NCBI RefSeq assembly: GCF_002252565.1
Contig: NZ_NPML01000002.1
Span: 186,001-250,000, forward strand
Length of the DNA: 64,000 nucleotides
Origin: Petroclostridium xylanilyticum
GTDB taxonomy: Bacteria; Bacillota; Clostridia; SK-Y3
Direction: 5' to 3'
Below, piece after piece: positions 16,171 to 55,763 of this stretch. The notes beneath the pieces were generated by a model. That model did not search any database. It was not told the origin of the DNA and worked only from the letters and a program-made list of their open reading frames with translations. The position numbers and the translations under genes were made by a program. Positions within the stretch are counted from its first letter, which is position 1, and each line of letters begins with the position of its first letter.

Positions 16171-16353
16171 CTATAAAAATTACATTTAATACGTTGATTA
16201 GGGTAAGTAACATCATGTATTTTATATTTTGCCGTCAGCTTATACCGGCGTCCGTGCCGGGATAAGCCTAAAATCACCCTCCGTGGTGATTTTCCGGCTG
16301 TAACATTTCATACATGATGTTACTTACCCTTCATAATGTATGTAATTTTATAT
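16171..16353 (-). repeat. Structured palindromic element alpha, copy A
   Basis: The segment begins CTATAAAAATTACATTTAAT and ends with the inverse of the same sequence. Inside, 16200-16220 pairs with 16310-16330 over 21 bp. The core (16230-16299) carries two more hairpins. Read on the minus strand, its core is close to the copies at 29426-29624 and 32515-32713. There is no coding capacity. It sits between hsp20 and the LysM-GH18 gene. Confidence 0.75.
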
Positions 16354-16416
16354 CAACTATACCATGTAGCACTCCTTCTTCCTGCTAAATCATCCTTTTT
16401 AGCGGTTTTGGTTTTA

Positions 16417-16451
16417 CTCTCCACTGTCCACTGTCCACTCTCCACTCTCCA
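16417..16451. repeat. 7-bp tandem repeat (5 units)
   Basis: Five units of CTSTCCA lie head to tail (16417-16423, 16424-16430, 16431-16437, 16438-16444, 16445-16451). Heptamer tracts of this kind occur between genes in many clostridia and their role is unknown. Confidence 0.85.
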
Positions 16452-16534
16452 CTATTTTCATAATATTGTATCTTATTTTAACTAATTTGCATATATTAAA
16501 CTATATAAGTATTATATTGAAAGGTGTGAGTTTC

Positions 16535-17815
16535 TTGATTATTCACGTTGTGAGGTCGGGTGAAAGCGTGTATTCAATTGGACGGTTGTATGGTGTATCA
16601 CCCTCTAAAATAATTGCAGACAATGAACTTGAAAATCCCGACCGGTTGGTGGTAGGACAGACATTAGTAATAATGGAAGGGACGCGAGCCCATAGAGTTG
16701 CTCCCGGTCAATCACTTTATATAATAGCCAGGGACTATGGAGTAAGTGTTGAAGATATACTAGCTGCAAACCCACAAATAACAGATCCTTCACGAATTTT
16801 TCCAGGACAGGTGATAGCCATTCCACCAAGAACAAGGAAACTTGGAACGATAGAAGTAAATGGATACGCATTTCCCAACATTGATATGGAAGTTTTGAGA
16901 AAAACACTTCTTTACCTTACCTATCTTAGTATATTCAGTTATGAGGTAAGACCCAATGGCAGTTTAAGAACTATTGATGATGTACCTTTGATTCGGGCTG
17001 CCAGGGCGGCTGGTGTCGCTCCACTTATGGTAATCACCAATCTGCAGGAAGGCGGAGGATTTAGCAGCGATATAGCCCAGGCTATACTTAGAAATAATCG
17101 GGTACAGGAAACTTTAATAAATAACGTAATAGAAACGTTAAGAGCTAAAAATTATTATGGCCTGGATATAGACTTTGAGTATATCTATCCGGCCGACAGG
17201 GAGAATTATAATAACTTCCTAAGAAAAGTTGTGAACAGGCTTAAACCTTTAGGTTATACAATTACTACTGCGCTGGCTCCAAAAATTGCTGCCGATCAAC
17301 CAGGTTTACTTTATGAAGCCCATGATTATCCTGTCCATGGTGCGCTGGCAGATCATGTTATACTCATGACTTACGAATGGGGATATACAGCCGGACCACC
17401 GTTGCCAGTAGCACCTCTCAACGAGGTAAGAAGGGTTTTAAATTATGCAGTAACTGCCATACCAAGACAAAAAATCCTTATGGGAATCCCAAACTATGGC
17501 TATGACTGGACATTGCCCTATACTCCAGGAACGAGGGCAAGGACATTATCCAACACAGGTGCAGTTGATCAGGCGGCGAGGGTTAGGGCGGCTATACGGT
17601 ATGATCCTGTATCCCAGGCACCCTTCTATAACTATTATGATGAAAACCGTCGGCAGCACGTAGTATGGTTTGAAGATGCGAGAAGCATAGAAGCAAAACT
17701 GAGATTAGTAAATGAATATAATCTTGGAGGTGTAAGCTACTGGACAATAGGCAGATACTTTCCGCAGAACTGGTTGGTATTGCAATCATTATATAATATT
17801 AGGAAAGTGCTTTAA
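16535..17815 (+). CDS. LysM-GH18 spore-type peptidoglycan hydrolase (SleL/YaaH-like)
   Basis: A 426-residue protein with two N-terminal LysM repeats (about 3-46, beginning IHVVRSGESVYSIGRLYG; and about 53-97, HRVAPGQSLYIIARDYG) and a GH18 domain (about 105-426). The catalytic motif is GLDIDFEYI, with Glu as acid/base, and a barrel-end segment is GVSYWTIGRYFP. Homologues are cortical-fragment N-acetylglucosaminidases acting in spore germination. The start is taken as TTG 16535 because AAGGTG lies 8 nt upstream and LysM begins directly after it, with no signal peptide, as in YaaH. Confidence 0.88.
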   Translation: MIIHVVRSGESVYSIGRLYGVSPSKIIADNELENPDRLVVGQTLVIMEGTRAHRVAPGQSLYIIARDYGVSVEDILAANPQITDPSRIFPGQVIAIPPRTRKLGTIEVNGYAFPNIDMEVLRKTLLYLTYLSIFSYEVRPNGSLRTIDDVPLIRAARAAGVAPLMVITNLQEGGGFSSDIAQAILRNNRVQETLINNVIETLRAKNYYGLDIDFEYIYPADRENYNNFLRKVVNRLKPLGYTITTALAPKIAADQPGLLYEAHDYPVHGALADHVILMTYEWGYTAGPPLPVAPLNEVRRVLNYAVTAIPRQKILMGIPNYGYDWTLPYTPGTRARTLSNTGAVDQAARVRAAIRYDPVSQAPFYNYYDENRRQHVVWFEDARSIEAKLRLVNEYNLGGVSYWTIGRYFPQNWLVLQSLYNIRKVL

Positions 17816-17836
17816 AAAGAATAGCGTGTGTCATAT

Positions 17837-17864
17837 AAAGGCCTGTTGATATGGGTCTTTTTTT
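17837..17864 (+). terminator. Rho-independent terminator of LysM-GH18 gene
   Basis: AAAGGCC (17837-17843) pairs with GGTCTTT (17854-17860, one G-U), followed by an uninterrupted T run. Confidence 0.65.
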
Positions 17865-17949
17865 GTTGAGGAAAATATTTACTACTATCATAGCATAACC
17901 GGTAGATTCTTTAAATACTGCCATTGACAAAAAAATGACAAATTTTCAG

Positions 17950-17978
17950 TTGACAAAATAAAGTTTATATTTTAATAT
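17950..17978 (+). promoter_or_regulatory. SigA-type promoter of glycine riboswitch
   Basis: TTGACA (17950-17955) and TAATAT (17973-17978) are separated by exactly 17 nt and lie about 25 nt upstream of the first glycine aptamer. Confidence 0.75.
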
Positions 17979-18000
17979 TTATATATACAATTTAATAACA

Positions 18001-18212
18001 TCGGATGAAGATAGCGGGAGAGCGATGGAAACATCCACCGAAGAAGTAAATCTTTCAGGTACCCGAATGGGCAGTGACCGTTATTGGACGAACCTCTGGA
18101 GAGACTCTAAATGAGCACCGAAGGAGCATGCTAATTATTTTTTATTGAGTTGTTATGTAAAATAACGAAAAAAATTAATTAGCGAAACTCTCAGGTAAAA
18201 GGACAGGGAATT
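18001..18212 (+). ncRNA. Tandem glycine riboswitch
   Basis: Two glycine aptamers in series. The first contains GCGGGAGAGC, CACCGAAGAAG, CAGGTA and CAGTGACCG (about 18013-18080). The second contains CTGGAGAGACTC, GCACCGAAGGAGC, CTCTCAGG and AAAAGGACAGGG (about 18095-18208). The conserved GAGAG / CACCGAAG / CTCAGG / GGACAG elements are the family signature. The second aptamer has a long AT-rich P3 extension (about 18128-18184). It controls a glycine/alanine symporter, a classical target. Confidence 0.93.
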
Positions 18213-18238
18213 TTTAAAGCTACATTTTGAACCAGAGA

Positions 18239-18266
18239 CCAAATCGTGTGATTTGGCTTTTATTTT
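18239..18266 (+). terminator. Expression-platform terminator of glycine riboswitch
   Basis: CCAAATC (18239-18245) and GATTTGG (18250-18256), with a GTGT loop, are followed by CTTTTATTTT. Its place between the aptamers and the gene fits termination control, with glycine favouring read-through as in known examples. Confidence 0.8.
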
Positions 18267-18363
18267 GGATAAAAGCTATTCATAACAATGTACTCCAATA
18301 CGTCTTTTTAACTGGGAGTGTACTTAATAACCATACTAACTAAAAAAGACTGGAGGAACAGTT

Positions 18364-19740
18364 ATGGAACAAATTTTACATGTATTCAAACAAATCGATG
18401 ACCTTGTATGGGGGCCTCCCCTACTCATTCTACTTATAGGCACAGGCTTTTATCTAACAATAAGACTGGGATGTTTACAAATCTTTAAACTTCCACTGGC
18501 AATTAAATATCTGTTTAAAAAGGATGAAGATAATACAGGAGAAGGGGACGTTTCCAGCTTTGCGGCCTTATGTACTGCTTTAGCAGCTACTATTGGAACT
18601 GGAAATATTGTAGGAGTTGCAACGGCTATAAAAGCTGGAGGCCCGGGAGCATTATTCTGGATGTGGATGGCGGCATTTTTCGGAATGGCAACAAAATATG
18701 CAGAAGGGTTACTGGCCGTAAAATACAGAGTAATCGATAAAAACGGACAAATGTCAGGCGGACCAATGTACTATATCGAAAAGGGGTTAGGCAATAGGTG
18801 GCTTGCTAAGACGTTTGCCATATTCGGCATTGCCGTAGCTTTCTTTGGTATCGGTACATTTCCCCAGGTGAATGCAATTGCAGATGCAGTAAAAATTACT
18901 TTTAACGTACCTATTATAGTTACTTCATTTATTATTACTGTACTTGTAGCTTTGGTAACGTTAGGCGGTATTAAAAGTATTGCAAAAGTCTCGGAACTTA
19001 TTGTGCCTTTTATGGCAATGTTTTATATTATAGGTTCCATCATAATTCTTATTTTTAATGTAAAATTGCTGCCGGAGACGATTGCAATGATTATAAAAAG
19101 TGCATTTACGCCCACAGCTGCTTTTGGAGGTTTTCTTGGAGCTACAGTTATGAAATCTATTCAAAGTGGAGTAGCAAGAGGAGTATTTTCAAATGAATCC
19201 GGCTTAGGTAGTGCACCTATTGCGGCTGCAGCAGCAAAGACAAAATCTTGCGTACGGCAGGGTTTAATTTCAATGACGGGTACATTTTTTGATACCATTG
19301 TGATATGTACTATGACCGGACTGGTGTTGGTTTTAACCGGTGCATGGAGTTCCGATACTGCCGGTGCTGCAATGACTAATCTAGCTTTCAGTAGCGGATT
19401 GCCAATCCCGGTGATTGGAAAACTCATTGTTAATATCGGATTGATATTTTTTGCTTTCACAACAATTTTGGGATGGAATTATTACGGAGAACGATGTACA
19501 GAGTATATTTTTGGAGTTAATGGAATAAAGCCTTATAGATATATTTTTATTATATTAGTAGCTGCAGGAGCATTTCTAAAACTGGATTTAATTTGGGTAA
19601 TAGCGGATATTGTAAATGGTTTGATGGCCATTCCTAATCTTATTGCTCTTGTTGGTTTGAGCGGGGTAATTATAAGTGAAACCAGAGCTTATTTTCAACA
19701 ATTAGAAAAGGAAGAATACACTGTTTTAAAAAGTGCCTAA
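18364..19740 (+). CDS. AGCS family sodium:alanine/glycine symporter
   Basis: A 458-residue membrane transporter with about 11 helices. AGCS signatures include DDLVWGPPLLILLIGTGFYL at the N terminus, AATIGTGNIVGVATAI, GALFWMWMAAFFGMATKYAE, GGPMYYIEKGLG, and the later GVARGVFSNESGLGSAPIA. It imports glycine or alanine with Na+. Glycine is favoured by the upstream riboswitch. AGACTGGAGG precedes ATG 18364. Confidence 0.95.
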   Translation: MEQILHVFKQIDDLVWGPPLLILLIGTGFYLTIRLGCLQIFKLPLAIKYLFKKDEDNTGEGDVSSFAALCTALAATIGTGNIVGVATAIKAGGPGALFWMWMAAFFGMATKYAEGLLAVKYRVIDKNGQMSGGPMYYIEKGLGNRWLAKTFAIFGIAVAFFGIGTFPQVNAIADAVKITFNVPIIVTSFIITVLVALVTLGGIKSIAKVSELIVPFMAMFYIIGSIIILIFNVKLLPETIAMIIKSAFTPTAAFGGFLGATVMKSIQSGVARGVFSNESGLGSAPIAAAAAKTKSCVRQGLISMTGTFFDTIVICTMTGLVLVLTGAWSSDTAGAAMTNLAFSSGLPIPVIGKLIVNIGLIFFAFTTILGWNYYGERCTEYIFGVNGIKPYRYIFIILVAAGAFLKLDLIWVIADIVNGLMAIPNLIALVGLSGVIISETRAYFQQLEKEEYTVLKSA

Positions 19741-19772
19741 GAGTATTAATACTAATTTATATCAGGTATATT

Positions 19773-19812
19773 AAAAAGTTAGTTTGCAAAGGCTAGCTTT
19801 TTATTTTTTTAG
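19773..19812 (+). terminator. Rho-independent terminator of AGCS gene
   Basis: AAAAAGTTAG (19773-19782) pairs with CTAGCTTTTT (19793-19802), followed by ATTTTTTT. Confidence 0.8.
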
Positions 19813-20002
19813 AAATATATTAAATATATAGCCGCAGTTATAAAACAGATAGATTTAGTAAGCGTAAAATGATATAATATGGGTCGACAAAACGTGTATT
19901 TTTAGTTAAAGAGGCAAAAATAAAATAAAGCAAAGCAAAAAGAAAAATTTGAATAGCGGAATTATTTCTAAAAAGTTGGTATAAGGAGGAGAAATAAATA
20001 AA

Positions 20003-21397
20003 ATGGAAAAGAAAACCATAAAGCAGCTTTATAAAGAAACAAAGTCTGTGCTAAACCAAATGATTCAGATTTCGGGATGGGTAAGAACAATAAGAGCTTC
20101 AAAAGCATTTGGTTTTATTGAAATCAATGACGGATCTTTTTTTAATAACCTTCAAGTGGTTTTTGAAGAAGAAAAGTTGTCTAATTTTAAGGAAATATCA
20201 AAGCTTAATGTAGGTTCGGCAATTACAATAGAAGGCGAACTGGTAGAAACTCCTGAGGCAAAGCAGCCTTTTGAGTTAAAAGCAAGTAATATAGTAATTG
20301 AAGGTACCTCTTTGCCTGAATATCCATTACAAAAGAAGAGACATTCTTTTGAATACTTGAGGACTATAGCCCATTTGAGACCGCGTACCAATACCTTCTC
20401 TGCGGTTTTTAGAGTGAGATCTCTGGTTGCATATGCCATTCATAAGTTTTTTCAAGAAAGAGGCTTTGTATACGTCCATACGCCTATCATTACAGGCAGT
20501 GATGCTGAAGGCGCCGGTGCAATGTTCAGGGTTACTACGTTGGACTTCAATGCACTGCCAAGAGATGAACATGGAAATATAGATTTTTCGAAAGACTTTT
20601 TCGGCAAGGAAACCAATCTAACTGTAAGCGGTCAGTTAGAGGTTGAAACCTATTGTATGGCGTTTAGAAATGTATATACTTTCGGCCCGACCTTCAGAGC
20701 TGAAAATTCAAATACTGCAAGACATGCAGCAGAATTCTGGATGATTGAACCGGAAATAGCCTTCGCAGAATTAAAAGACAACATGAAGCTTGCAGAAGAA
20801 ATGATGAAATATATTATTAGTTATGTTATGGAAAACGCTCCCGAAGAAATGCAGTTTTTCAATAATTTTATAGACAAAACATTATTTGAAAGACTAGATA
20901 ATGTGGCGAATTCGGAGTTTGGACATATTACATATACGGAAGCAATAGAACTGTTAAAGAAAGCCGGACATAACTTTGAGTATCCTGTAGAGTGGGGCAA
21001 CGACCTCCAAACGGAACATGAAAGGTACTTAACGGAGCAGATTTTTAAAAAGCCTGTATTTGTAACTGATTATCCAAAGGATATAAAAGCCTTCTATATG
21101 CGAATGAATGATGATAACAAAACAGTGGCTGCAATGGATTTACTTGTCCCGGGTGTGGGGGAGATTATAGGAGGGAGCCAGAGAGAGGAAAGATTGGATT
21201 ATCTTGAAAGAAGGATGGATGAGCTGGGACTTAAAAAGGAAGATTACTGGTGGTATCTCGACTTGAGAAAATACGGCGGGACTAAACATGCAGGGTATGG
21301 ACTTGGCTTTGAGAGAGCAATCATGTATATAACAGGAATGTCCAACATCAGGGATGTTATATCTTTTCCAAGAACCGTCAAGACAGCAGAATTTTAA
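20003..21397 (+). CDS. asnS: Asparagine--tRNA ligase
   Basis: A 464-residue class IIb synthetase. The N-terminal OB-fold anticodon-binding domain (about 18-100) has [20 protein letters not shown]. Catalytic motif 2 lies around [20 protein letters not shown] and motif 3 is [20 protein letters not shown]. The ending [15 protein letters not shown] is typical of AsnRS. TAAGGAGGAG lies upstream. No T-box signature (GGTGGNACCGCG) is seen in the 262-nt gap before the gene. Confidence 0.96.
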
Positions 21398-21430
21398 TGG
21401 TGGTAGCATTTTGAATCTAAAGCGTTTTTA

Positions 21431-21462
21431 GGAAGTCCTTGAAGCCAAGGGCTTCCTTATTT
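21431..21462 (+). terminator. Rho-independent terminator of asnS
   Basis: GGAAGTCCTTG (21431-21441) pairs with CAAGGGCTTCC (21446-21456), then TTATTTTC. Confidence 0.8.
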
Positions 21463-21552
21463 TCATAAAGAGAAAAAATGAATCAAATCAGAATAAATGG
21501 TATAATAATAAATATTATTGTGGTATATATTGAAGTGAAGTGGGGAATAAAG

Positions 21553-22209
21553 ATGAGAAGAAGAAAAAAGCCGGGAGCAAAGGAAAAACTATTAAGCTAT
21601 GAACAATATGTATGTATAAACCCCGAAGATTTTAAAGGAAAGTGGTATGAGTATTTTAATAATTCCAGTGAAATACATGTGGAACTAGGAACAGGCAGAG
21701 GGCAGTTTATAACAACTTTGGCAGAATTAAATCCAGCTGTCAATTATATCGGGGTGGAGGTGAAGGAGGAAATTTTACTTAAAGCAGTACAAAAAGCAGA
21801 AGAAAAACAATTGAACAACATCGTTTTTCTCTGGTATGATATAAATAAGTTTGCAGATATATTTGAAGAAAATGAATTGAGCAGAATTTATATAAACTTC
21901 TGCGACCCATGGCCTAAAAACAGATGGGCAAAAAGAAGGCTTACCCATAGAAAATTTCTTGAAGGATATAAACATTCTTTACAGCAAAACAGTGAAATTC
22001 ACTTTAAAACGGATAATGAAAAGTTATTTGAATTTTCTTTAAATGAATTCTCACACTGTGATTTCAAGCTGAAAAATATCACTTTTGATCTGCATAACAG
22101 CAATTTTGAGGGAAATATCACAACAGAATATGAGGATAAGTTTGTACAAATGGGGATGAGGATATATAGGTGTGAAGCTGTGAAAAGGAGATTTGGACAG
22201 GGCACTTGA
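21553..22209 (+). CDS. trmB: tRNA (guanine-N7-)-methyltransferase
   Basis: A 218-residue SAM-dependent enzyme that makes m7G46 in tRNA. The SAM-binding motif is ELGTGRGQFITTLAE. The family signature is NFCDPWPKNRWAKRRLTHRK (conserved DPWPK..H/A.KRR). ATG 21553 is chosen because the protein then starts MRRRKKPGAKEKL, as TrmB does, and GGGGA lies just upstream. The in-frame ATG 21478 would add 25 unrelated hydrophobic residues. Confidence 0.93.
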   Translation: MRRRKKPGAKEKLLSYEQYVCINPEDFKGKWYEYFNNSSEIHVELGTGRGQFITTLAELNPAVNYIGVEVKEEILLKAVQKAEEKQLNNIVFLWYDINKFADIFEENELSRIYINFCDPWPKNRWAKRRLTHRKFLEGYKHSLQQNSEIHFKTDNEKLFEFSLNEFSHCDFKLKNITFDLHNSNFEGNITTEYEDKFVQMGMRIYRCEAVKRRFGQGT

Positions 22210-22254
22210 GTTTAATCTGGAAGCTTACAGCTATAATAGTAGGAGATATATCGT

Positions 22255-22371
22255 ATGAAAGAAGTTACTGCAGCGATTATCATAAATGATGGGAAAGTAT
22301 TAATAGCTCAAAGAGCTGAGAACCAAAAGTTGGCTGGTAAATGGGAGTTCCCGGGAGGGAAAAAAGTTTGA
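22255..22371 (+). pseudogene. NUDIX hydrolase (MutT-like) N-terminal remnant
   Basis: ATG 22255 with AGGAGA upstream opens a 38-codon frame reading MKEVTAAIIINDGKVLIAQR, then GKWEFPGGK, and a stop. This is the start of an 8-oxo-dGTP diphosphatase, ending inside the first half of the NUDIX box (the G...E...REUXEE part is gone). The following DNA encodes a different remnant, so a deletion joined the two. Confidence 0.7.
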
Positions 22372-22379
22372 CTTTTGCT

Positions 22380-22499
22380 CAGAATAGAACATTAGCAGAG
22401 TCAAATGAGAATGGAGTAGATGTGCATCTCTTTGAAGTTTTTAAAGAAAAAGAGTATGTATATATGGGACAAGTAAAGCTTGTTGAAAAACCTTTATGA
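22380..22499 (+). pseudogene. Fragment resembling a domain of McrA-type restriction endonucleases
   Basis: Frame 22380-22499 reads QNRTLAESNENGVDVHLFEV and then YVYMGQVKLVEKPL before a stop. The pattern of NRTLAES, VHLFEV and YMGQV resembles a DNA-binding domain of HNH/McrA-like restriction enzymes as I remember them. It lacks a start and is broken downstream, where about 150 nt have no open frame. The family match is by eye and uncertain. It is directly fused to a MutT-like remnant. Confidence 0.35.
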
Positions 22500-22664
22500 C
22501 AATCAAAAAGTAATTTTGCGGGATTAATCAAAGATTATGATGATATTTCACAATATGGACGAAAAGAAATAAAAAAATGTTTGATTATATTCAATAAGAA
22601 GGATACAATAGATACGAGCACAACACATTAATCAGTTTAGTACTAATGAAAGGAAGTGCGGGAC

Positions 22665-23777
22665 ATGAGGGTATTGTTTCTTTCGGTAACAGCTGGACAA
22701 GGGCATCATTCTGCCGCTAAAGCTGTTATGGATTATCTTAACGAACGTAATGTAGAATGTACAATGTTGGATACCTTTGAGTACATTAATCCTATTTTAA
22801 GCGAGTCAATTGCCAGAGGATATTTGATTTCTACCCAATTCACTCCTGCGGTTTACGGAAAATTATACCGTTTGGCAGAAAAAAAAGAAAAAAGCGATGC
22901 CAAATTTTCTATTTCAAAATTAACCAGTTCAATTTTGTCTAGAAAACTAGTTACATATATTCGGGATTATAGCCCTGATGTTATTGTGTGTACTCATATT
23001 TTTTCTGCACAGATCATCACCGAGCTAAAAGAAAAAAATCTGGGTGCTAAAACCATCGGAATTATTACTGATTTCACCATTCATCCGTTTTGGGAAGATA
23101 CTGACCTGGATTATTATATTACTGCCAGTGAACTCCTAAACCATCAAGCTGAAAAAAAGGGAATTCCTATAGAAAAAATTAAGGCTACAGGTATCCCCAT
23201 ACATATGAAATTTTCTAAAAAAATTGATCAGGCTGAGGCGAGAAGGTTATTAGAAGTTGAAGATAAAACTACCATTTTTGTCATGAGTGGAAGCATGGGT
23301 TATGGTAATGTAATCAAGATTATCCGGCAGTTGGATGAACTGGATATGGATTTTCAGATTATATCCGTATGTGGCAATAATAAGGGGTTAAAACGAAAGA
23401 TTGATCATTTGAAAAGTAAGAAGAAAATCTATAACTATGGATTTGTAAACAATGTAGACGTTATAATGGATGCCGCAAACTGTATCGTTACCAAGCCCGG
23501 TGGTTTAACCGTATCAGAAAGTCTGGCAAAGAGATTGCCCATGATCTTAATAAACCCTATTCCAGGGCAGGAGGATAGGAATGTAGAATTCCTGTTAAAC
23601 AACGGATTGGCTGTTAAGACCAGTCCAACCTTTCCTATTGATGAAGCTGTTTTCCAGCTGATGCTCAACGACTGGAGACAACAAAATTTAAAGGAAATGA
23701 TAAAATATATTGGAAAGCCTAATGCTTCCAAGGATCTTGGGGATTTTATCATTGAACTAATAGGTGGAAATTTGTAG
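22665..23777 (+). CDS. Diacylglycerol glucosyltransferase (UgtP/MGDG synthase-like)
   Basis: A 370-residue GT28-type glycosyltransferase. The N-terminal MGDG-synthase domain opens with LFLSVTAGQGHHSAAKAVMD (glycine/histidine acceptor motif). The C-terminal donor domain contains FVMSGSMGYGNV and the NDP-sugar loop KPGGLTVSESLAKRLPMI. It would transfer a hexose from UDP-sugar to diacylglycerol at the membrane, for glycolipid and lipoteichoic acid anchors. ATG 22665 is preferred; AAAGGA lies 10 nt upstream, whereas GTG 22656 overlaps that site. Confidence 0.85.
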   Translation: MRVLFLSVTAGQGHHSAAKAVMDYLNERNVECTMLDTFEYINPILSESIARGYLISTQFTPAVYGKLYRLAEKKEKSDAKFSISKLTSSILSRKLVTYIRDYSPDVIVCTHIFSAQIITELKEKNLGAKTIGIITDFTIHPFWEDTDLDYYITASELLNHQAEKKGIPIEKIKATGIPIHMKFSKKIDQAEARRLLEVEDKTTIFVMSGSMGYGNVIKIIRQLDELDMDFQIISVCGNNKGLKRKIDHLKSKKKIYNYGFVNNVDVIMDAANCIVTKPGGLTVSESLAKRLPMILINPIPGQEDRNVEFLLNNGLAVKTSPTFPIDEAVFQLMLNDWRQQNLKEMIKYIGKPNASKDLGDFIIELIGGNL

Positions 23778-23811
23778 TTGTTTTTTGAAAAAGCTAAGAG
23801 TTGATGGGAGT

Positions 23812-23851
23812 AAAGAGTATACTTGCGATGGTTTCGAGTATACTCTTTTTT
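23812..23851 (+). terminator. Rho-independent terminator
   Basis: A 12-bp stem AAAGAGTATACT/AGTATACTCTTT (23812-23823 with 23837-23848) runs into TTTTT. It separates the glycosyltransferase and CCA enzyme genes. Confidence 0.85.
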
Positions 23852-23880
23852 CAATAAACAAAATTTTGGAGGATATACAA

Positions 23881-25218
23881 ATGAATGTGTTTGATTTAGA
23901 TATACCTGAAGGTGTGTATTATATTATGAGCAAGCTAAAAGAAAATGGACATAAAGCTTATATTGTCGGAGGGTGTGTTAGGGATTCCTTGATGCGTATG
24001 ACTCCTAAGGATTGGGATATTACAACTTCAGCTACGCCTCAGGAAGTCAAAAAGATATTTACTGATACTTACGATACAGGCATTAAGCATGGCACAGTGA
24101 CGGTGTCGGTAGGAAGGGAAACGTTTGAAGTAACAACCTTCCGGATAGAAGGCGTATACGATGACCATAGAAAACCCTCTAAAGTATTTTTTACTAAAAG
24201 TATTTTGGAAGATCTGAAAAGAAGAGATTTTACCATGAATGCAATAGCATTTCATCCTGAAGAAGGTCTTATTGACCCTTTTAACGGGGCTTCAGATATC
24301 ACAAATAAGATTATACGGTGTGTCGGTATTGCTGATGAAAGGTTTAAAGAAGATGCTTTAAGAATGTTGAGGGCTTTCCGCTTTTCCTGCCAGTTAAATT
24401 TTGATATTGAAAAACATACGTTTGAAGCTATTCATAAAAATAGAAAGTTAATTAAAGAAGTTAGTAATGAAAGGGTCCGGGAGGAATTAAATAAGCTTCT
24501 TCTATCTGACCATCCAATGAAGTTACTGCTTATGCAAAAAGCTAAAATATTGGCATATATACTTCCGGAATTGGAATGTTGTCTGTTTACAAAGCAGAAT
24601 CACCCCTATCATGTATATGATGTAGGGCTGCATACATTAAAAGCAGTACAAAGTATTGAAAAAGATATTGCTTTAAAATGGACAATGCTGCTCCACGACG
24701 TGGGTAAACCCCTTTCAAAAACGGTAGATAGCGAGGGGATAGACCATTTTTACGGCCATGGAGAAAAAAGTATGGAGCTGGCTGACCGAATCCTTAAACG
24801 GCTGAGATTTGATAATAAAACCATAAATAGGATAACCCGGCTTGTAAAATGGCATGATCGGCCTATTGAAGCAACACCTAAAGCTGTACGGAGAGCAGTT
24901 CGAATAATAGGTGAAGATATATTTTTAGATTTATTAAAGGTGAAAGAAGCGGATGTAAAAGCTCAAAACCCTGAATATCTGAAAGAAAGGCAAATAAAGC
25001 TTCATAATATTAAAAGGATTTACGAAGAAATAAAGCAGTCAGGTCAATGTTTATCAATAAAGGATTTGGCTGTCAGTGGCGAAGATTTGTTGTCTATCGG
25101 TATACCGGAAGGAAAAAATATTGGCAGCATTCTTAAGAAATTATTGGATATTGTTATAGAAGCCCCTGAAATGAATACAAGAGAAAAGTTGCTGAGTTAT
25201 ATAAAGGACTCAGAATAA
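23881..25218 (+). CDS. cca: CCA-adding tRNA nucleotidyltransferase with HD domain
   Basis: A 445-residue class II nucleotidyltransferase. The flexible loop and active site are GGCVRDSLM and KDWDITTSATP (metal-binding DxD), followed by FRIEGVYDDHRKP, KRRDFTMNAIAF and the template motif EDALRMLRAFRF. A C-terminal HD domain has LLHDVGKP and YGHGEKS. It adds or repairs the tRNA CCA end; the HD part may act as phosphohydrolase. ATG 23881 follows GGAGGATATACAA; the upstream in-frame start at 23764 would run through a terminator. Confidence 0.92.
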   Translation: MNVFDLDIPEGVYYIMSKLKENGHKAYIVGGCVRDSLMRMTPKDWDITTSATPQEVKKIFTDTYDTGIKHGTVTVSVGRETFEVTTFRIEGVYDDHRKPSKVFFTKSILEDLKRRDFTMNAIAFHPEEGLIDPFNGASDITNKIIRCVGIADERFKEDALRMLRAFRFSCQLNFDIEKHTFEAIHKNRKLIKEVSNERVREELNKLLLSDHPMKLLLMQKAKILAYILPELECCLFTKQNHPYHVYDVGLHTLKAVQSIEKDIALKWTMLLHDVGKPLSKTVDSEGIDHFYGHGEKSMELADRILKRLRFDNKTINRITRLVKWHDRPIEATPKAVRRAVRIIGEDIFLDLLKVKEADVKAQNPEYLKERQIKLHNIKRIYEEIKQSGQCLSIKDLAVSGEDLLSIGIPEGKNIGSILKKLLDIVIEAPEMNTREKLLSYIKDSE

Positions 25219-25245
25219 GTATAATTTACTTATTCGTTAATTTTT

Positions 25246-25297
25246 AAAATCCTGCATTAAACTTTGTCGAGTGATGCAGGATTTTCTATTTTTTTGA
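25246..25297 (+). terminator. Rho-independent terminator of cca
   Basis: AAAATCCTGCAT (25246-25257) pairs with ATGCAGGATTTT (25274-25285), followed by CTATTTTTTT. Confidence 0.85.
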
Positions 25298-25359
25298 CGA
25301 ATTATATAACTTGTCTAATTTTTATATAACTACAAAGGGCTTTTTCTTGGGGGAATGTT

Positions 25360-26778
25360 ATGGCTGTTCAGTCTATAGTGATTGAAATCATTTTAATTGT
25401 AGTTTTAAATATATTTGCAGTATATATTAAATATTTAAGAAAAAAGGTCTTAAAAGCAGACAGAGAACTTCAAATGCAATATAAAATGGCCTATTACGAT
25501 TCTTTGACAGGCTTGCCTAACAGGACTTCATTGATGGAAAGATTAAATGATGCGCTTGTTAGGGCACGCAGAGACAATCATATGGTTAGTGTGATATTTC
25601 TTGATCTTGATAACTTTAAGACAATTAATGATACATTGGGACATACTTTTGGAGACCTGTTATTAAAAAATGTTGGAGAGATGCTGCAAAGATATCTGGG
25701 AGAAGGGAATACTGTTGCACGCTTAGGGGGAGATGAACTGGTACTGCTGCAGCCGCGAATTTATAGTGTAGATGATGTACTAAAGATAGTTGTTAAAATT
25801 GTTGAAGCACTACAGCACCCATGGATATTGGATGATCGTGAATTTTATATTACCACGAGTATAGGAATAGCACTTTACCCTGACCATGGACAAGATGCAC
25901 AAACCTTGCTTAAAAATGCAGATACTGCAATGTATTATGCAAAAGAACTTGGCAAGAATACCTATCAGCTGTTTAACCAGAGTATGAATACTAAAATATT
26001 ACAGAGGCTGGAGATGGAAAGTAATCTGAGACATGCCCTAGAACGAAATGAGTTTACCGTTTATTATCAGCCCCAAATTGATGTTGGCACCGGTAAGATT
26101 ATTGGCGCCGAAGCATTAATACGCTGGATTCATCCTACAATGGGTTTTGTACCTCCGATGGATTTTATTCCTCTGGCAGAAGAAACAGGACTTATAGTGC
26201 CTATCAGTGAATGGTTGTTGCGTACTGCTTGTATTCAGAATAAGAAGTGGCAGGAGTCAGGTTTGCCGCCTATATGTATGGCGGTAAACCTTTCGGCACG
26301 CCAATTTCAACAACAAAACCTGGTGGAAATGATATCATCATTGTTGCAGGAAACAGCGCTGGAGCAGCAATGGCTTGAATTGGAAATAACAGAAAGCATT
26401 GCTATGAAAGATCTGGATTATACAATCCTGGTATTAAAAAGATTAAAAGAAATGGGGATACATATTTCGTTAGATGATTTCGGTACGGGATATTCTTCAC
26501 TCAATTATTTAAAACGTTTGCCAATTAATACCTTAAAAATCGATAAATCTTTTGTACATGACATTACCGCAAACTCAAATGAAGAAGCAATTGCTAAAGC
26601 GTTGATTTCGTTAGCGCATAGTATGAAGCTTACCATAGTTGCAGAAGGAGTAGAGACAGAAGAACAATTTGCATTTCTGAAAGAGCAAAAATGTGACAGG
26701 GTACAAGGCTATTTATTTAGTAAACCACTGCCGGTTGACGAGTTTGAAAAATTGTTAAGGCAACAGGCATATCTATAA
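25360..26778 (+). CDS. Membrane-anchored GGDEF-EAL cyclic-di-GMP protein
   Basis: A 472-residue protein: one N-terminal membrane helix (about 3-25), a GGDEF domain (about 45-205) and an EAL domain (about 220-465). The cyclase signature reads RLGGDELVLL, so the last residue of GGDEF is Leu. The EAL domain keeps its catalytic residues: EALIRW, NLSARQF, ELEITES, the double Asp in SLDDFGTGYSSL, LKIDKSF, and AEGVETEEQ with QGYLFSKP. Phosphodiesterase activity is therefore likely; cyclase activity is possible but less certain. No sensor domain is present. Confidence 0.92.
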   Translation: MAVQSIVIEIILIVVLNIFAVYIKYLRKKVLKADRELQMQYKMAYYDSLTGLPNRTSLMERLNDALVRARRDNHMVSVIFLDLDNFKTINDTLGHTFGDLLLKNVGEMLQRYLGEGNTVARLGGDELVLLQPRIYSVDDVLKIVVKIVEALQHPWILDDREFYITTSIGIALYPDHGQDAQTLLKNADTAMYYAKELGKNTYQLFNQSMNTKILQRLEMESNLRHALERNEFTVYYQPQIDVGTGKIIGAEALIRWIHPTMGFVPPMDFIPLAEETGLIVPISEWLLRTACIQNKKWQESGLPPICMAVNLSARQFQQQNLVEMISSLLQETALEQQWLELEITESIAMKDLDYTILVLKRLKEMGIHISLDDFGTGYSSLNYLKRLPINTLKIDKSFVHDITANSNEEAIAKALISLAHSMKLTIVAEGVETEEQFAFLKEQKCDRVQGYLFSKPLPVDEFEKLLRQQAYL

Positions 26779-26785
26779 ATTAATA

Positions 26786-26880
26786 TGCGGCTTGGGGACA
26801 TTCCTCGGCACGAGGTGTGTCCCATGACCTTAGATGACTAAGGAATTATCCCCATGTCGCATTCCTGACCAGTCATGTAA
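26786..26880. repeat. REP-like element gamma, copy 1
   Basis: An imperfect palindrome starts GCGGCTTGGGGACA and returns as TATCCCCATGTCGC at 26847-26860. It continues with CCTGACCAGTCATGTAAAAT (26864-26883), which recurs exactly after the copy at 62572. No coding potential. It lies between two convergent genes. Confidence 0.7.
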
Positions 26881-26893
26881 AATAAATAATGTG

Positions 26894-27232
26894 TTATATA
26901 TAGTTTAAATGTTGTGTGATTAATTTAAGTAAAAACATACTTACTATTCCTGCTAATACTGTAAAAAACAGATTTTTAGTTTTAGCTGCGACTAAAAAAC
27001 AAGGAATAGACGCAAGAAAATTTTTGTTGTCAAGACTTACAGCAAGATTTTTATCAGACAGTAATATCCCGGGAACCAGAAGGGCAGATAGTACTGCTAC
27101 AGGTATATACTTTAACCATTTTAGAAACAATGGGTGCATTTCAAATTTAGATAGTATAACTAAAGGTAACATTCTGGGGATATAAGTAACCAGACTCATT
27201 CCGATAATGGCAAGGATAATTTTTTGCTCCAT
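26894..27232 (-). CDS. azlD: AzlD-like branched-chain amino acid exporter subunit
   Basis: A 112-residue membrane protein with four hydrophobic segments. Features of the AzlD family are MSLVTYIPRMLPL at the N terminus (conserved T..PR..P) and WLKYIPVAVLSALLVPGIL. It overlaps azlC by 37 nt, as is usual for this pair. Together they form a two-component exporter of branched-chain amino acids or analogues. Confidence 0.88.
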   Translation of the reverse strand: MEQKIILAIIGMSLVTYIPRMLPLVILSKFEMHPLFLKWLKYIPVAVLSALLVPGILLSDKNLAVSLDNKNFLASIPCFLVAAKTKNLFFTVLAGIVSMFLLKLITQHLNYI

Positions 27233-27897
27233 AACTCTACACTCACCCCGATCGTTGCAGCCAATAATGTGGCTATAATAATATTCCAGTTTCCATCTAC
27301 TTCCACGGCTATCAGTAGTGAGAGTCCTCCGGCGCAGATAGAAACCAGCAAGTCTTTTTTGTCTTTCATTTGCATGAGCAACAAGCCGATAAACATTGCA
27401 GATAGTGCAAAATCTATTCCCCAGCGGGCAGGGTCAGGAATTAGATTGCCCAGTGCGCCTCCTAATACTGTGCTGGCAATCCAGCTGGCCTGAGAGGTAA
27501 TATGCAAGCCGGCAAAATATTTTGCCGAACAAGTTTCTGCCCTGGCTTGAGTGATCCCTACTGCATAAGTTTCGTCCGTAATTCCAAAAGAAATCAATGC
27601 CTGGATAGGAGAAGCTATGTGTTTGAGATAGGGGGAGAGTGATGCACTCATTAGCAAATGACGCAGGTTAACCAGGAAAGTAGTCATAATAATAGAGATT
27701 ACCCCTGCCCCCGATGCGATCATAGCTGCGGCAATAAATTGTGCTGAACCTGCATATACAAAAAGGGACATGAAGAATATATCTAAGATTGTCAAGCCCT
27801 GTTGGACAGCTAAAACTCCGAAAGCAAAGCCAATGGGTAAATAACCAAGAGCAATAGGCATGGCTCCTTTTGCACCTTTTATATAATCATTTTTCAT
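27196..27897 (-). CDS. azlC: AzlC-like branched-chain amino acid exporter subunit
   Basis: A 233-residue membrane protein. Family features include GAMPIALGYLPIGFAFGVLA, FVYAGSAQFIAAAMI, VNLRHLLMSASLSPYL and GITDETYAV. Start 27897 is chosen because AGGAGG lies 7 nt upstream on the minus strand; the longer frame to 27945 has no ribosome binding site. Confidence 0.9.
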   Translation of the reverse strand: MKNDYIKGAKGAMPIALGYLPIGFAFGVLAVQQGLTILDIFFMSLFVYAGSAQFIAAAMIASGAGVISIIMTTFLVNLRHLLMSASLSPYLKHIASPIQALISFGITDETYAVGITQARAETCSAKYFAGLHITSQASWIASTVLGGALGNLIPDPARWGIDFALSAMFIGLLLMQMKDKKDLLVSICAGGLSLLIAVEVDGNWNIIIATLLAATIGVSVELWSKKLSLPLSE

Positions 27898-28030
27898 AGA
27901 GTACCTCCTGATGTTTATGATGAACGTTTGCGGTTCGTAATTCATATTAATCGCTACGATATACCTTCACAGGTCATAAATTATAGATGAAAATAGTCTG
28001 TACATTGGATTTACTCCCCACTATTTTTAC

Positions 28031-28059
28031 ATTATAAAATAGAAAAAGGACAGGGTCAA
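28031..28059 (-). promoter_or_regulatory. SigA-type promoter of azlCD
   Basis: On the minus strand TTGACC (28059-28054) and TATAAT (28036-28031) are spaced by 17 nt. This leaves a 5' leader of about 125 nt before azlC. The divergent NfeD-like gene starts 157 nt away on the other side. Confidence 0.7.
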
Positions 28060-28215
28060 TAAAAATTAGTGTTAAGGAATTGAAAGAAACAAAAGAATTG
28101 GAAATATAAATAGTAACAAATGTAAACAAAGTTTAATATTGTTTTTATTGTAATAGATATATTATTGCTGTAAAATAATATGTGTCAGATTTAAAAAGCG
28201 GCAAGGAGAGGGAAG

Positions 28216-28767
28216 ATGATGGGTAACATATTCTTTATTGCCTTTGCAGTTGGGGTTGTTTATACGCTTATCTCCTTTTTATTAGGTCAAATTTTGAGCT
28301 TTGATGGGGGAGATATTGATGTAGATCTCGATTGGGAGGGTATAGGGTTCTTTGATATTCCTATTTCACCTTTAAAACCGGTGATAATTGCCAGCTTTAT
28401 AACTATATTTGGCGGCGTTGGTCTATTAGCGCATCGTTACAATGGAATGACTTTTCTTTTATCATTTTGTCTTGCTTTAACAATGGCTTTAATTGGTGCA
28501 TTTTTAATATACAAGTTAATAGTTATTCCACTATATCGCGCTCAAAATACTAGTGCCCATGATATAAATCATCTTCAGGGTACCGATGCCGTTGTGACTT
28601 CATCAATTTATGGAGATAAATTTGGAAGAATCCGTTACGTTGTTAATGACTGTACATATTCTGCTCCTGCACGGTCTATTAACCAACAGGATATAAGACA
28701 GGGGGAAAAGGTCATCATCATTGACGTTGAAAAAAATGTTTTTTATGTAGAGAAGCTTCATGAATAG
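28216..28767 (+). CDS. NfeD/YuaF-like membrane protein with C-terminal OB fold
   Basis: A 183-residue protein with three membrane segments (about 5-25, 56-78 and 84-106), an acidic loop (DGGDIDVDLDWEG), and a soluble beta-rich C-terminal domain from about 125 (LQGTDAVVTSSI, GEKVIIIDVEKNVFYVEKL) with NfeD OB-fold layout. Such proteins usually pair with flotillin-type scaffolds. No flotillin gene follows here; the next 1.6 kb is repeat DNA, so a partner may have been displaced. Confidence 0.7.
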   Translation: MMGNIFFIAFAVGVVYTLISFLLGQILSFDGGDIDVDLDWEGIGFFDIPISPLKPVIIASFITIFGGVGLLAHRYNGMTFLLSFCLALTMALIGAFLIYKLIVIPLYRAQNTSAHDINHLQGTDAVVTSSIYGDKFGRIRYVVNDCTYSAPARSINQQDIRQGEKVIIIDVEKNVFYVEKLHE

Positions 28768-28851
28768 CTGGTTCGTTTAAAGTTTTACAAAAAATAGTAC
28801 AAAAGGAAATGTGTAGATTTATGACTCCAGAGTCGCAAATCTATGAACGAA

Positions 28852-29115
28852 CAATGGGGACGGTTCTTATTGTGTGGCGAATGTATGGAACAATGGGGAC
28901 GGTTCTTATGAGACACGAACAATGGGGACGCTTGAACAGAGCTAGGGAAATAGAGGTTATGTCTGCTCTGGATATATTTTAGGATAACAGGTATTAATAG
29001 AACTGCTGCTAGCAAATCTTGACAATGAGAACCGTCCCTATTGACCTCTATGACAATGAGAACCGTCCCTATTGACCCTAGTCCCTATTGACCCTACTAT
29101 TGACCTCTATTGACC
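28852..29115. repeat. REP-like element beta, copy 1, with nested ends
   Basis: Three left ends (CAATGGGGACGGTTCTT at 28852 and 28890, and a shortened one at 28920) precede a core beginning GAACAGAGCTAGGGAAATAG. They are mirrored by two full right ends (GACAATGAGAACCGTCCC, 29021 and 29052) and shorter CTATTGACC copies to 29115. The core is shared with copies at 32342, 34708 and 40663. Confidence 0.8.
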
Positions 29116-29283
29116 AAGTAGCTTTTATAAGTAAACACAGGTTAAAAGAATTAAAAGGAAAAATAATCTCTTCTTAAAATGGAGGAGATTATTTTTGTTT
29201 ATATATCATTTTTGACGGATAGGACGGTTAATTAAAACCCCTAAACCGGGCCATTCGCGCCTCAAATGTGGCCAGTTGCGCCG
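29116..29283 (+). pseudogene. Duplicated 3' end of lytTR regulator gene plus downstream sequence
   Basis: These 168 bp match 40490-40657 with few differences. They include the last 20 codons of the LytTR response regulator (SKHRLKELKGKIISS and stop), its terminator hairpin, and the following GGGCCATTC module. The copy has no start and is preceded by a beta element. Confidence 0.85.
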
Positions 29284-29419
29284 TAAAAGTGACCAGTTAG
29301 GAAAATCGGCAGGATTTTGGGAGTGTATCAAGAATATATCAAATATAACAAAAACTTAGAATTAATATCTTACAAGCAACATGGTTATATCAATACACTG
29401 AATGGAAAATCTCGTTATA

Positions 29420-29731
29420 AAACATCTATATCAATAACACTAAATATATTACATGCGTTATGACGGGGAAGCAGCAACATGTATGGAATGTTGCTGCCAG
29501 AAAATCACCATGGAGGGAGATTTTAGGCTTATTCCGGCACGGGTGCCGTTATAAGCCGACGGCAAAACATGGAGTACATGCTGCTGTTTCCACCAATGTA
29601 ATGTATTAAGTGTAATTTATATAGTATACGTTATATTGAAAATTTTTTGAAAGAAAAAAAGCGTGGTGATTCCCTTGGGCTGAAAAAGTGATGCGCTTAT
29701 TGTTGCAAATAAAAAATAGAGTTAAGGAGGT
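29420..29731 (+). repeat. 312-bp leader module, copy 1 (contains element alpha copy B)
   Basis: Bases 29420-29731 are nearly identical to 32509-32820, without length change. The module holds palindromic element alpha (29426-29624) and about 105 bp of leader ending in TTAAGGAGGT, a strong Shine-Dalgarno site. Here it leads into a 16-codon frame (ATG 29741, MIIHIRSPNKIRMFFY and stop). Confidence 0.85.
29426..29624 (+). repeat. Structured palindromic element alpha, copy B
   Basis: A 199-bp element with long imperfect terminal inverted repeats (CTATATCAATAACACTAAAT at the left; its inverse ends at 29624). The internal arm AAGCAGCAACATGTA can pair with TACATGCTGCTGTTT near the right end or with the nearer ATGTTGCTGC. 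The core holds an AAAATC/GATTTT hairpin and a GGCTTAT/ATAAGCC hairpin capped by CGGCAC/GTGCCG. The related region at 35.1 kb lacks the element, so it is a discrete insertion. Confidence 0.8.
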
Positions 29732-29740
29732 ATACAAGTC

Positions 29741-29791
29741 ATGATAATACATATAAGATCGCCGAACAAAATCAGAATGTTTTTTTATTAA
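29741..29791 (+). other. Short frame behind shared Shine-Dalgarno site
   Basis: ATG 29741 follows GGAGGTATACAAGTC and encodes 16 residues (MIIHIRSPNKIRMFFY) before TAA. A second frame at 35770 begins MIIHIRSPDK behind the same GGAGGTATACAAGTC. Either both are the first codons of a truncated gene or they are short peptides; the sequence does not decide. Confidence 0.3.
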
Positions 29792-29811
29792 AAGATTTTA
29801 CAATGTTAAAT

Positions 29812-29975
29812 GGGTAGTGTCAAAAGATTTATAAAAAATGATTAACATAAGAAGATGATAAATGACATAAGAAGACCTAAAGCAGCATAAGTTGCACCAC
29901 ATATAAAAAGATACATCGTCATTGTAAGCCCTCAAGGGCAATACTGTGTTCGGCTTACGCTGACTTTTGACAGCC
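29812..29975. other. Possible insertion-element remnant in gene-free stretch
   Basis: GTGTCAAAAG near 29816 and CTTTTGACAG at 29964-29973 form an inverted pair about 150 bp apart. No transposase frame lies between them. Bases 29976-30390 contain no credible gene either, only stop-rich frames. Low-confidence reading of a decayed element. Confidence 0.3.
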
Positions 29976-30409
29976 TTATTCTTGCGATGGAAAGGATAAC
30001 CAAGCGGTGCAAGAGACGCAAGTAAAACTAAGTAAAACTAGCGTTTTCACACTTGATGATAGATTTGAACCTTGACAAAATGAGCCGGATAGTTGGGATG
30101 AATTTTCACTATAAGGACAAAGACCCCGTGGTGGAGTTTGACTGACATCCACCTCATGGACTGCAGAACGAAGGAATTAAGGGCTATGACCCCGTTAGAT
30201 ATGGGAGGTTTGCTGCCGGAGATTATGTGGATACCAATGGCCGTGATACTGAAAGAAAGACGCAGTGTTATTAGGTCATACAACATCATTCATAATTGTG
30301 CAGCAATGCAATATCTGTCCATATGGCATGTTTTGAAAATGTTGAAATTCTATGATTGAGTGAAAAAATGAAAGAAAACGAAGAAATATTAGGGAGGTAT
30401 ATAATTATC

Positions 30410-31090
30410 ATGAAAAAAATTATATGCTCATTGACTGTTTTGGCATTGACTTTTAATGTTTTTGCAGTGTCTGCAAGTGCAAAATCAAAAAAACCGTTGG
30501 GGAATGTAACTGAAGAGAAATTGGACATTCCACATGAAGTAACTACAACTATGCAATATGACTTGGAAGAAGCGCAAAAAATTGCAGAACAAGAAAAAAG
30601 CAGTCATATTGACAACTCAGATAACACCTCAACGACTCTAGGTGATGTTACGACACAAGATTTGGATTTGAGGTGGCATACACATCGTATTGAAAACGTA
30701 AGGATATATCAGATTAATGATTATTATCCAGTTACAGACTGGTACGTTGGTTCTGCTACAATTGCATATCAGCAAGGACAATCTTTCACAATTTCGGGCT
30801 CTGTTAACACAACTTGCGGAGTTAGTGCAAGTACAGCAGTTGCTCAAGTCAAAGCGGATACAGGTGTTACTATAGGGGCTTCTACAACGGTAACTTGTAG
30901 TACTACATATACAAGAACAATTTCTTCAGGTTATAAAGGGAGAATAATTTACAGATATACCTATGATTATGCAACCTTCACCTGTGTAAAAGACTATGAT
31001 AATCCTAATTATCGTGATGAATATGGTGAGGGAGATGGCAAATCTGCAGCATATGATGGGTACTTTACTTTGCAACAAGTTTCACTTTAA
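30410..31090 (+). CDS. Secreted protein of unknown function
   Basis: A 226-residue protein with a clear signal peptide (MKKIICSLTVLALTFNVFAV, cleavage near SASA-K), a low-complexity linker (about 30-75), and a Thr/Ser/Tyr-rich beta-strand domain. The last part has alternating strands (TTVTCSTTYTRTISSGYKGR) and ends near GKSAAYDGYFTLQQVSL. I recognise no family. ATG 30410 has GGGAGG upstream; the longer frame to 30356 would bury the signal peptide. A strong terminator follows. It is the first coding gene of the exoprotein island. Confidence 0.75.
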   Translation: MKKIICSLTVLALTFNVFAVSASAKSKKPLGNVTEEKLDIPHEVTTTMQYDLEEAQKIAEQEKSSHIDNSDNTSTTLGDVTTQDLDLRWHTHRIENVRIYQINDYYPVTDWYVGSATIAYQQGQSFTISGSVNTTCGVSASTAVAQVKADTGVTIGASTTVTCSTTYTRTISSGYKGRIIYRYTYDYATFTCVKDYDNPNYRDEYGEGDGKSAAYDGYFTLQQVSL

Positions 31091-31099
31091 AGTATATAA

Positions 31100-31156
31100 A
31101 AATATTATAGAACAATCATTTTTTGATTGTTCTATAATATTTCTATAATATTTTTA
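31100..31156 (+). terminator. Rho-independent terminator
   Basis: A perfect 19-bp stem (31100-31118 with 31124-31142, TTTTT loop) lies just after the stop of the secreted protein gene, with a T-rich tail. Confidence 0.75.
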
Positions 31157-31168
31157 TATATCTATATC

Positions 31169-31394
31169 CAGTATTGTTGAAAATAAAAGTTTTGCAAAAG
31201 TCAATAGTAATAGTTTACAGGTATAACCTGGACATATAAGAAAACTATGGGTAGTGTTAGAGAAAAGGGAAGTGATCACCTAAGTCTAACAATATAAAAT
31301 AGTAAACTTCTTGGTTCTACGGTCTGCATCGGTTTCGTCAACGGATTTTTCCAGAACATTCATTGGTAAAAAGCCTTTTAAAGTTTCAAAAACT
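31169..31394 (-). mobile_element. Internally deleted remnant of the IS4-family element
   Basis: The remnant starts with the same terminal sequence as the intact IS (CAGTATTGTTG, 31169). It keeps the terminal region to about 31305, then jumps to DNA matching the 5' end of the transposase gene (31305-31394 with 37929-38027, opposite strand to the window). About 1.1 kb, and the other inverted repeat, are missing. It cannot encode a transposase. Confidence 0.8.
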
Positions 31395-31437
31395 ATGCAT
31401 AGGTTATATAAATTAGCGTAATAAGAGGAGGCCTGTA

Positions 31438-32319
31438 ATGAAACAAATAAGTATTTGTGTTATTTTTATATCTATCATAATAATATTAACTTCATGTAAT
31501 AGTAAAGTAGCAAATTATAATCAATCATTGTCGTATATGGAACTTATTGAATTTGATAAATATAATTCATTAATAACACTAAATGATGATATAGATCCAA
31601 ATTCATATGAATCTATCTTGTTTTATGGTAAAATTAACTCATCACAGGCGATTGAAGAAATAGAAGAAGATATTAAACAAGAACTGAAGTCAATATCATT
31701 AATACAAAATGAAGAAATTATTATGGAGTCAGATAATTTTATTTGGAACATAAACGATAGTGATAATATAAAAAATTTTGAATTACAAGTAAATATACTT
31801 CCAAATAAAATAGATACTAATGTTTATATTGATAAATTACAGTTAAATTTAAATACAGATAAGAAAATAACAAAAGAGATTGGAATGTATTACATAAATA
31901 CACATAACATGGCCAATAATAAAATATTATCTGTTGTTGAGTCGCCTATTGAACCACATAAACTACCTGTTATTGGAAAGGAATCAACAGTTAGTTATAG
32001 AATTATGACGCTAACAGAAAACTTTAACAATAACTTTAAAGTTACAGTAGATGTACCGGAATTTTTTACTAAATTTTTTTCAATAACAAGTGTTAAATGG
32101 AATTACGATGATAAGCTAACTGAAGATATAAAAAAAGAGTATAAGAAATCTATTACAGAAGCTGAAATTAAAAACGTAAAGATATATGAAGTTATAGTAA
32201 CATATAAGGTAAACGAAAAAAGCAATATTCTTTTTAAACCTTTAATTTTCTCAGATATTACTAATTCAAATGAATTTTGTACTCCCTCTGTTCCATTAAA
32301 GTTTCATTATACTGATTAA
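31438..32319 (+). CDS. Lipoprotein of unknown function
   Basis: A 293-residue protein with a lipoprotein signal (MKQISICVIFISIIIILTSC, lipobox LTSC at Cys20). The mature part is Asn/Lys/Ile-rich, without cysteines or catalytic motifs I can recognise. It looks beta-rich in its second half. GAGGAGG upstream of ATG 31438 supports the start. Codon use is noticeably more AT-rich than in the core genes, consistent with acquired DNA. A beta element begins 22 bp after the stop. Confidence 0.75.
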   Translation: MKQISICVIFISIIIILTSCNSKVANYNQSLSYMELIEFDKYNSLITLNDDIDPNSYESILFYGKINSSQAIEEIEEDIKQELKSISLIQNEEIIMESDNFIWNINDSDNIKNFELQVNILPNKIDTNVYIDKLQLNLNTDKKITKEIGMYYINTHNMANNKILSVVESPIEPHKLPVIGKESTVSYRIMTLTENFNNNFKVTVDVPEFFTKFFSITSVKWNYDDKLTEDIKKEYKKSITEAEIKNVKIYEVIVTYKVNEKSNILFKPLIFSDITNSNEFCTPSVPLKFHYTD

Positions 32320-32341
32320 GACGATTTAGAGCAAGACGGAG

Positions 32342-32503
32342 CAATGGGGACGGTTCTTCTTGTACGGAGCAATGGGGACGGTTCTTCTTGAACAGAGCTG
32401 GGGAAATAGAGGTTATGTCTGCTCTGGATATATTTTAGGATAACAGGTATTAATGGAACTGCTGTTAGCAAATCTTGACAATGAGAACCGTCCTTATTGA
32501 CTT
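32342..32503. repeat. REP-like element beta, copy 2
   Basis: Two left ends (CAATGGGGACGGTTCTTCTT at 32342 and 32370), the shared core, and one right end (GACAATGAGAACCGTCC, 32477-32493). It lies between the lipoprotein gene and the second leader module. Confidence 0.8.
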
Positions 32504-32508
32504 CCCTA

Positions 32509-32820
32509 AAGCATCTATATCAATAACACTAAATATATTACATGCGTTATGACGGGGAAGCAGCAACATATATGGAATGTTGCTGTCAGAAAATCACCAT
32601 GGAGGGAGATTTTAGGCTTATTCCGGCACGGGTGCCGTTATAAGCCGACGGCAAAACATGGAGTACATGCTGCTGTTTCCACCAATGTAATGTATTAAGT
32701 GTAATTTATATAGTATACGTTATATTGAAAATTTTTTGAAAGAAAAAAAGCGTGGTGATTCCCTTGGGCTGAAAAAGTGATGTGCTTATTGTTGCAAATA
32801 AAAAATAGAGTTAAGGAGGT
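32509..32820 (+). repeat. 312-bp leader module, copy 2 (contains element alpha copy C)
   Basis: A near-identical copy of 29420-29731, again ending in TTAAGGAGGT. Element alpha occupies 32515-32713. Here the module serves as the 5' leader and ribosome binding site of the C39-like peptidase gene at 32828. Confidence 0.85.
32515..32713 (+). repeat. Structured palindromic element alpha, copy C
   Basis: 199 bp, differing from copy B by only a few bases (for example GTTGCTGT for GTTGCTGC, which turns a G-C pair into G-U). The same folding potential is kept. Confidence 0.8.
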
Positions 32821-52982: not shown

Positions 52983-52991
52983 ATTATTATT

Positions 52992-55759: not shown

Positions 55760-55763
55760 CGTT

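Follow-up and report, generated by a model that had tools for sequence, protein, structure and literature searches.

TwoAYGGAY is a known but little-understood RNA motif, reportedly due to Weinberg et al. 2010, and has remained an orphan since that year. Its Rfam family, RF01731, occurs in Clostridiales and consists of an outer helix enclosing two hairpins with AYGGAY-type loops. A CsrA site is an A-N-GGA sequence presented in a hairpin loop. The match between RF01731 and such sites was published earlier, with CsrA binding proposed in 2015 (PMC4333381), and what we add to that existing proposal is a genome-scale association with csrA and evidence of mobility. The CsrA-sequestering RNAs of the CsrB/RsmZ type in Gammaproteobacteria also carry several GGA hairpin loops with a potential hold on CsrA dimers, whereas TwoAYGGAY has two predicted sites rather than many and is a dispersed repeat rather than one dedicated gene. 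MITEs and the REP/BIME-type palindromic repeats resemble it in being short, non-coding, intergenic, multicopy and bounded by terminal inverted repeats (TIRs), with complementary arms; unlike them, TwoAYGGAY has a conserved loop motif on one strand, and we found neither a parental transposase nor a clear target-site duplication. A search of a limited literature collection found no paper linking CsrA with palindromic repeats.

The window, a 64,000-nucleotide stretch of the Petroclostridium xylanilyticum genome (G000), contains three related elements of about 80% mutual similarity, at the positions reported in the first-pass annotation. As that annotation stated, the elements have TIRs (those of copy B match at 25 of 29 positions) and hairpins in their core, of which there are two, enclosed by a 19-bp outer helix. 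The copies and their parts are listed here; R1 is a covariance model built from this genome's own copies, with copy B among its training sequences.

16171-16353, minus strand: copy A, full-length TwoAYGGAY element; RF01731 62.6 bits, Rfam match spanning 16186-16345
16310-16328, minus strand: copy A outer helix, 5' arm; partner 16202-16220, 19/19 pairs, in the MFE fold
16270-16293, minus strand: copy A hairpin 1, loop ACGGAG
16237-16268, minus strand: copy A hairpin 2, loop ACGGAC
16202-16220, minus strand: copy A outer helix, 3' arm; partner is the 5' arm, in the MFE fold
29426-29624, plus strand: copy B, full-length; TIRs 29426-29454 and 29596-29624; RF01731 25.3 bits, R1 136 bits (a training sequence of R1)
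29466-29484, plus strand: copy B outer helix, 5' arm; partner 29574-29592, 17/19 pairs
29501-29524, plus strand: copy B hairpin 1, loop ATGGAG
29526-29557, plus strand: copy B hairpin 2, loop ACGGGT, GGA lost
29574-29592, plus strand: copy B outer helix, 3' arm; partner is the 5' arm
32515-32713, plus strand: copy C, segmental duplicate of copy B; R1 130 bits
34937-35160, plus strand: element-free paralogous site, by alignment; the left (29241-29429) and right (29625 on) flanks of copy B meet at 35132/35133

Copy A is an RF01731 element: its score against the covariance model lies above the gathering score of 43, and it carries both hairpin loops of the A-Y-GGA-Y type. The first-pass annotation had recognised no named family, and had itself set the existence of a describing Rfam family against its reading; on this point it was wrong. 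Ten copies in the genome exceed the RF01731 gathering score, whereas copies B and C fall below it. On sequence grounds, copies B and C are nevertheless degenerate members of the same element, because copy B is 81% identical to copy A across 150 nt (aligned on opposite strands) and scores highly with the own-genome model that it helped to train. Both keep one GGA loop and have lost the GGA of loop 2. The Rfam model describes the core only, whereas here the core belongs to a multicopy, TIR-bounded unit with a corresponding empty site. A covariance-model search of clostridial genomes, which had been proposed along with the original description, returned R1 matches only within the same taxonomic family; it therefore adds few genomes, and RF01731 reaches more.

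The window itself contains evidence of mobility. The flanks of copy B adjoin one another without the element at 35132/35133, within a paralogous segment that is about 90% alike, and the stretch absent there has the extent of the TIR-bounded unit, give or take about 4 bp. The simplest reading of this one site would be that a MITE-like unit inserted, the alternative being precise loss. The junction is TAT-rich, so that no unambiguous target-site duplication could be recognised. Copies B and C represent a single insertion that was later duplicated together with its flank, since the segments 32507-32806 and 29418-29717, which include both element and downstream flank, are 99% identical over 300 bp. 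From the empty site and the single B/C insertion, we take the element to be a TIR-bounded dispersed palindrome of the MITE type, short and non-coding. A non-exhaustive look among the genome matches revealed no longer element between paired TIRs.

Three copies are only part of the complement in this genome (3.86 Mb in 41 contigs), where several truncated copies accompany 18 full-length ones. They fall into two sub-families by their ends, one comprising copies of the A, B and C type with the TIR CTATATAAATAACACTAAATATATTACAT, and the other having ends like GACACAATAGRACCGAT and ATGTATTTTCATCAT. Copy number differs even between species of one genus, with 18 copies in one genome (G042) and 1 and 2 in two others, and a genome searched with the loops masked (G021) yielded 35 full-length copies. 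Other clostridial genomes have their own versions, in which the stem sequences differ from genome to genome. Exact-pattern scans returned one named record with the same locus, a Clostridiales MAG, and matched no viral contig. We note that a 33-kb contig in an assembly of a different genus (G001 contig C76, locus L208; see also L176, JASGMB010000007.1) is 99.97% identical to the present genome over 3.1 kb; given this identity we regard it as probably mis-binned, and have not taken it as independent evidence.

Folding energies lie far under those of shuffled sequences (z = -10.8 for copy A and -4.9 for copy B), and the compensatory change in the long outer arm that the first-pass annotation had described between copies A and B is real. 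Across the 18 full-length copies the long fold comprises 49 pairs, with 95.5% of cells paired and two-sided changes at 10 of the pairs; its covariation score of 0.211 compares with 0.126 in shuffles, none of 500 reaching it. Shifting the helix partners along the alignment of these copies abolishes the covariation; RNAalifold independently recovers the same fold, and single-sequence folding yields it for A and B.

The companion claim, that the 5' arm pairs alternatively with a nearer segment and that this pairing also covaries, did not survive the larger set of copies. In neither register does any pair show changes on both sides, and the columns pair at the level of shuffles; moreover, the register differs between the copies, alignment columns 9-18 pairing with 26-35 in B and 9-15 with 26-32 in A. 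Enforcing the near pairing costs 22.5 kcal/mol in A. In copy B the 10 bp of the near hairpin pair without a mismatch, and this fold lies only 3.5 kcal/mol above the best one, which is what speaks for a regulatory RNA alternating between two exclusive folds; we consider such an RNA very improbable, and as a general property of the family the switch is refuted. The near pairing may be a chance property of copies B and C rather than a family-wide switch.

Covariation of the arms is not in itself proof of selection on RNA, and complementary changes among the copies of a palindrome should be read with that caution. The ratio of G-U to A-C mismatches leans to G-U in the inner arms (77:48, p = 0.012, the copies not being independent) and shows no clear G-U excess in the outer arms (193:164), and we did not retain this weak asymmetry as proof of RNA-level selection. 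Complementarity also extends far past the Rfam model, with arms of up to 190 nt in one genome (G404) and about 380 nt in another (G290), in long perfect runs even though the copies differ from each other. In these two genomes (L133-L138 in G404; L169 and L171 in G290) the TwoAYGGAY cores sit centrally in much longer near-perfect palindromes that differ between copies. DNA-level conversion of one arm by the other is likely to contribute to the complementarity.

What stays constant between genomes is a pair of A-N-GGA-N hairpin loops, on one strand only, capping stems of unlike sequence. The within-genome mean deviation per loop position was A 0.01, N 0.24, G 0.02, G 0.01, A 0.00 and N 0.18, values that come mostly from matches to a model that rewards AYGGAY. 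Because of this dependence we searched G021 again with the loops masked, and in that set the AGGA of loop 1 was intact in 29/29 copies and the GGA of loop 2 in 24/29, with the neighbouring positions varying in about 40%. In the window's own genome there is more decay, and the GGA columns show no clear advantage in conservation over the stems. The best candidate function for TwoAYGGAY is binding of CsrA.

We compared the distribution of the element with that of csrA, which is present in the window's genome (2.3e-26). TwoAYGGAY occurs almost exclusively in csrA-bearing genomes. Among 118 relatives, csrA was found in all 20 genomes with the element against a background of 42/118 (p about 2.5e-11 without correction for ancestry), and a genome in which only R1 detected the element (G003) is csrA-bearing as well. 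The class-wide sample, which overlaps with the first, gave 29 of 31 against 134/393. The two genomes with the element in which csrA was not detectable (G175 and G299) are fragmented assemblies whose genus mates carry the gene. As controls, a group II intron had csrA in 6/12 of its host genomes, and an unrelated palindromic repeat, GGGGACGGTTCT, counted where it had at least five copies, had csrA in 20/27; the difference between 20/20 and 20/27 has p = 0.015, again disregarding ancestry. Since CsrA genomes are enriched for this unrelated repeat as well, part of the csrA association reflects lineage or lifestyle.

Rfam assigns the family the type 'Cis-reg', which would make the copies leaders or 3'UTR elements that the host has exapted to control adjacent genes. 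The window's genome appears to agree, since of its 15 copies flanked by co-directional genes 13 are sense and 2 antisense, and downstream of B and C there are ORFs with ribosome-binding sites. This genome is an outlier, however: the other nine that we examined have 17 sense and 26 antisense, making 30 and 28 over all ten by simple ORF calls, with no orientation bias, and we dropped orientation as a sign of cis-regulation. The lack of bias argues that most copies are not positioned for action in mRNAs, and counts against one conserved cis-regulatory role. The genes beside the copies bear no relation to one another (Hsp20, a LysM/GH18 protein, secreted proteins), and the discoverers of the motif flagged it as probably not cis-regulatory (PMC2864571). 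We give this explanation little credence.

On balance we lean towards TwoAYGGAY being a selfish, MITE-like dispersed palindrome whose transcript can, putatively, bind CsrA. A short non-coding palindrome would spread in the manner of a MITE, as copy number, TIRs and the clean paralogous empty site suggest; its GGA-strand transcript would fold into one long hairpin with two side-by-side apical A-N-GGA-N loops, and these paired loops could form a two-site docking platform for dimeric CsrA. The majority of copies would probably be neutral, decaying insertions, and those that sit in the sense direction within transcripts could act by titrating CsrA or by changing the stability of the host transcript. 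The chief competitor is a mobile palindrome of the MITE or fold-back type acting purely at the DNA level, in which the mobilising enzyme reads the GGA loops on single-stranded DNA or a hairpin, CsrA is irrelevant, and the co-occurrence is a matter of lineage or lifestyle. It would account for the TIRs, the empty site and the dispersal, for outer arms that run near-perfectly complementary far beyond the Rfam model with no clear G-U excess, for the unbiased orientation relative to genes, and for a second palindromic repeat that likewise tracks CsrA genomes. It sits less easily with loops that are confined to one strand and have the A-N-GGA-N form of a CsrA site, and with csrA in every host of the first set, a higher share than for either control, repeat or intron; we judge it somewhat unlikely. 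The earlier suggestion of "regulatory RNA or mobile hairpin DNA" thus finds some support on each side, from the conserved one-strand GGA loops on the one and from the TIR-bounded dispersed palindrome with its paralogous empty site on the other, while its competing-folds component falls away.

A more speculative extension of the CsrA-binding reading, which we think unlikely, is that mobile palindromes have repeatedly spread in csrA-bearing Clostridia because of the two-site CsrA decoy they carry, with arm-to-arm conversion preserving the complementarity of the long arms in each copy and selection preserving the loops. If CsrA is indeed bound, the element would amount to a distributed, multicopy CsrA sponge in Gram-positive bacteria, or would itself be under CsrA control. 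The link to csrA across genomes and the status as a dispersed palindrome turn a guess at the level of a motif into a directly testable claim, and raise the question of whether an RNA-based CsrA antagonist exists outside the Gammaproteobacteria and has spread via mobile repeats.

The window has other features that we record for completeness. Further dispersed repeats, rich in GGGGACGGTTC / GAACCGTCCCC, lie at 50980-51055, 62567-62642, 26836-26902 and 28900/32356/34706/40661, and we counted the 12-mer GGGGACGGTTCT 82 times in this genome and found it in 47/118 relatives. A CRISPR array of about 8 repeats (GTTTTCCTTCCTCATAGGAGCTATAAAAAC) at 51588-52083 adjoins a minus-strand set of type III-A cas genes (52224-58662; Cas6, RAMP, Csm2, Cas10/Csm1). 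A 2936-aa protein encoded at 40969-49779 belongs to the cyclic beta-glucan synthase type, combining GH94 with glucoamylase domains, and a tandem glycine riboswitch at 18005-18216 lies 5' of a sodium:alanine symporter gene (18364-19740).
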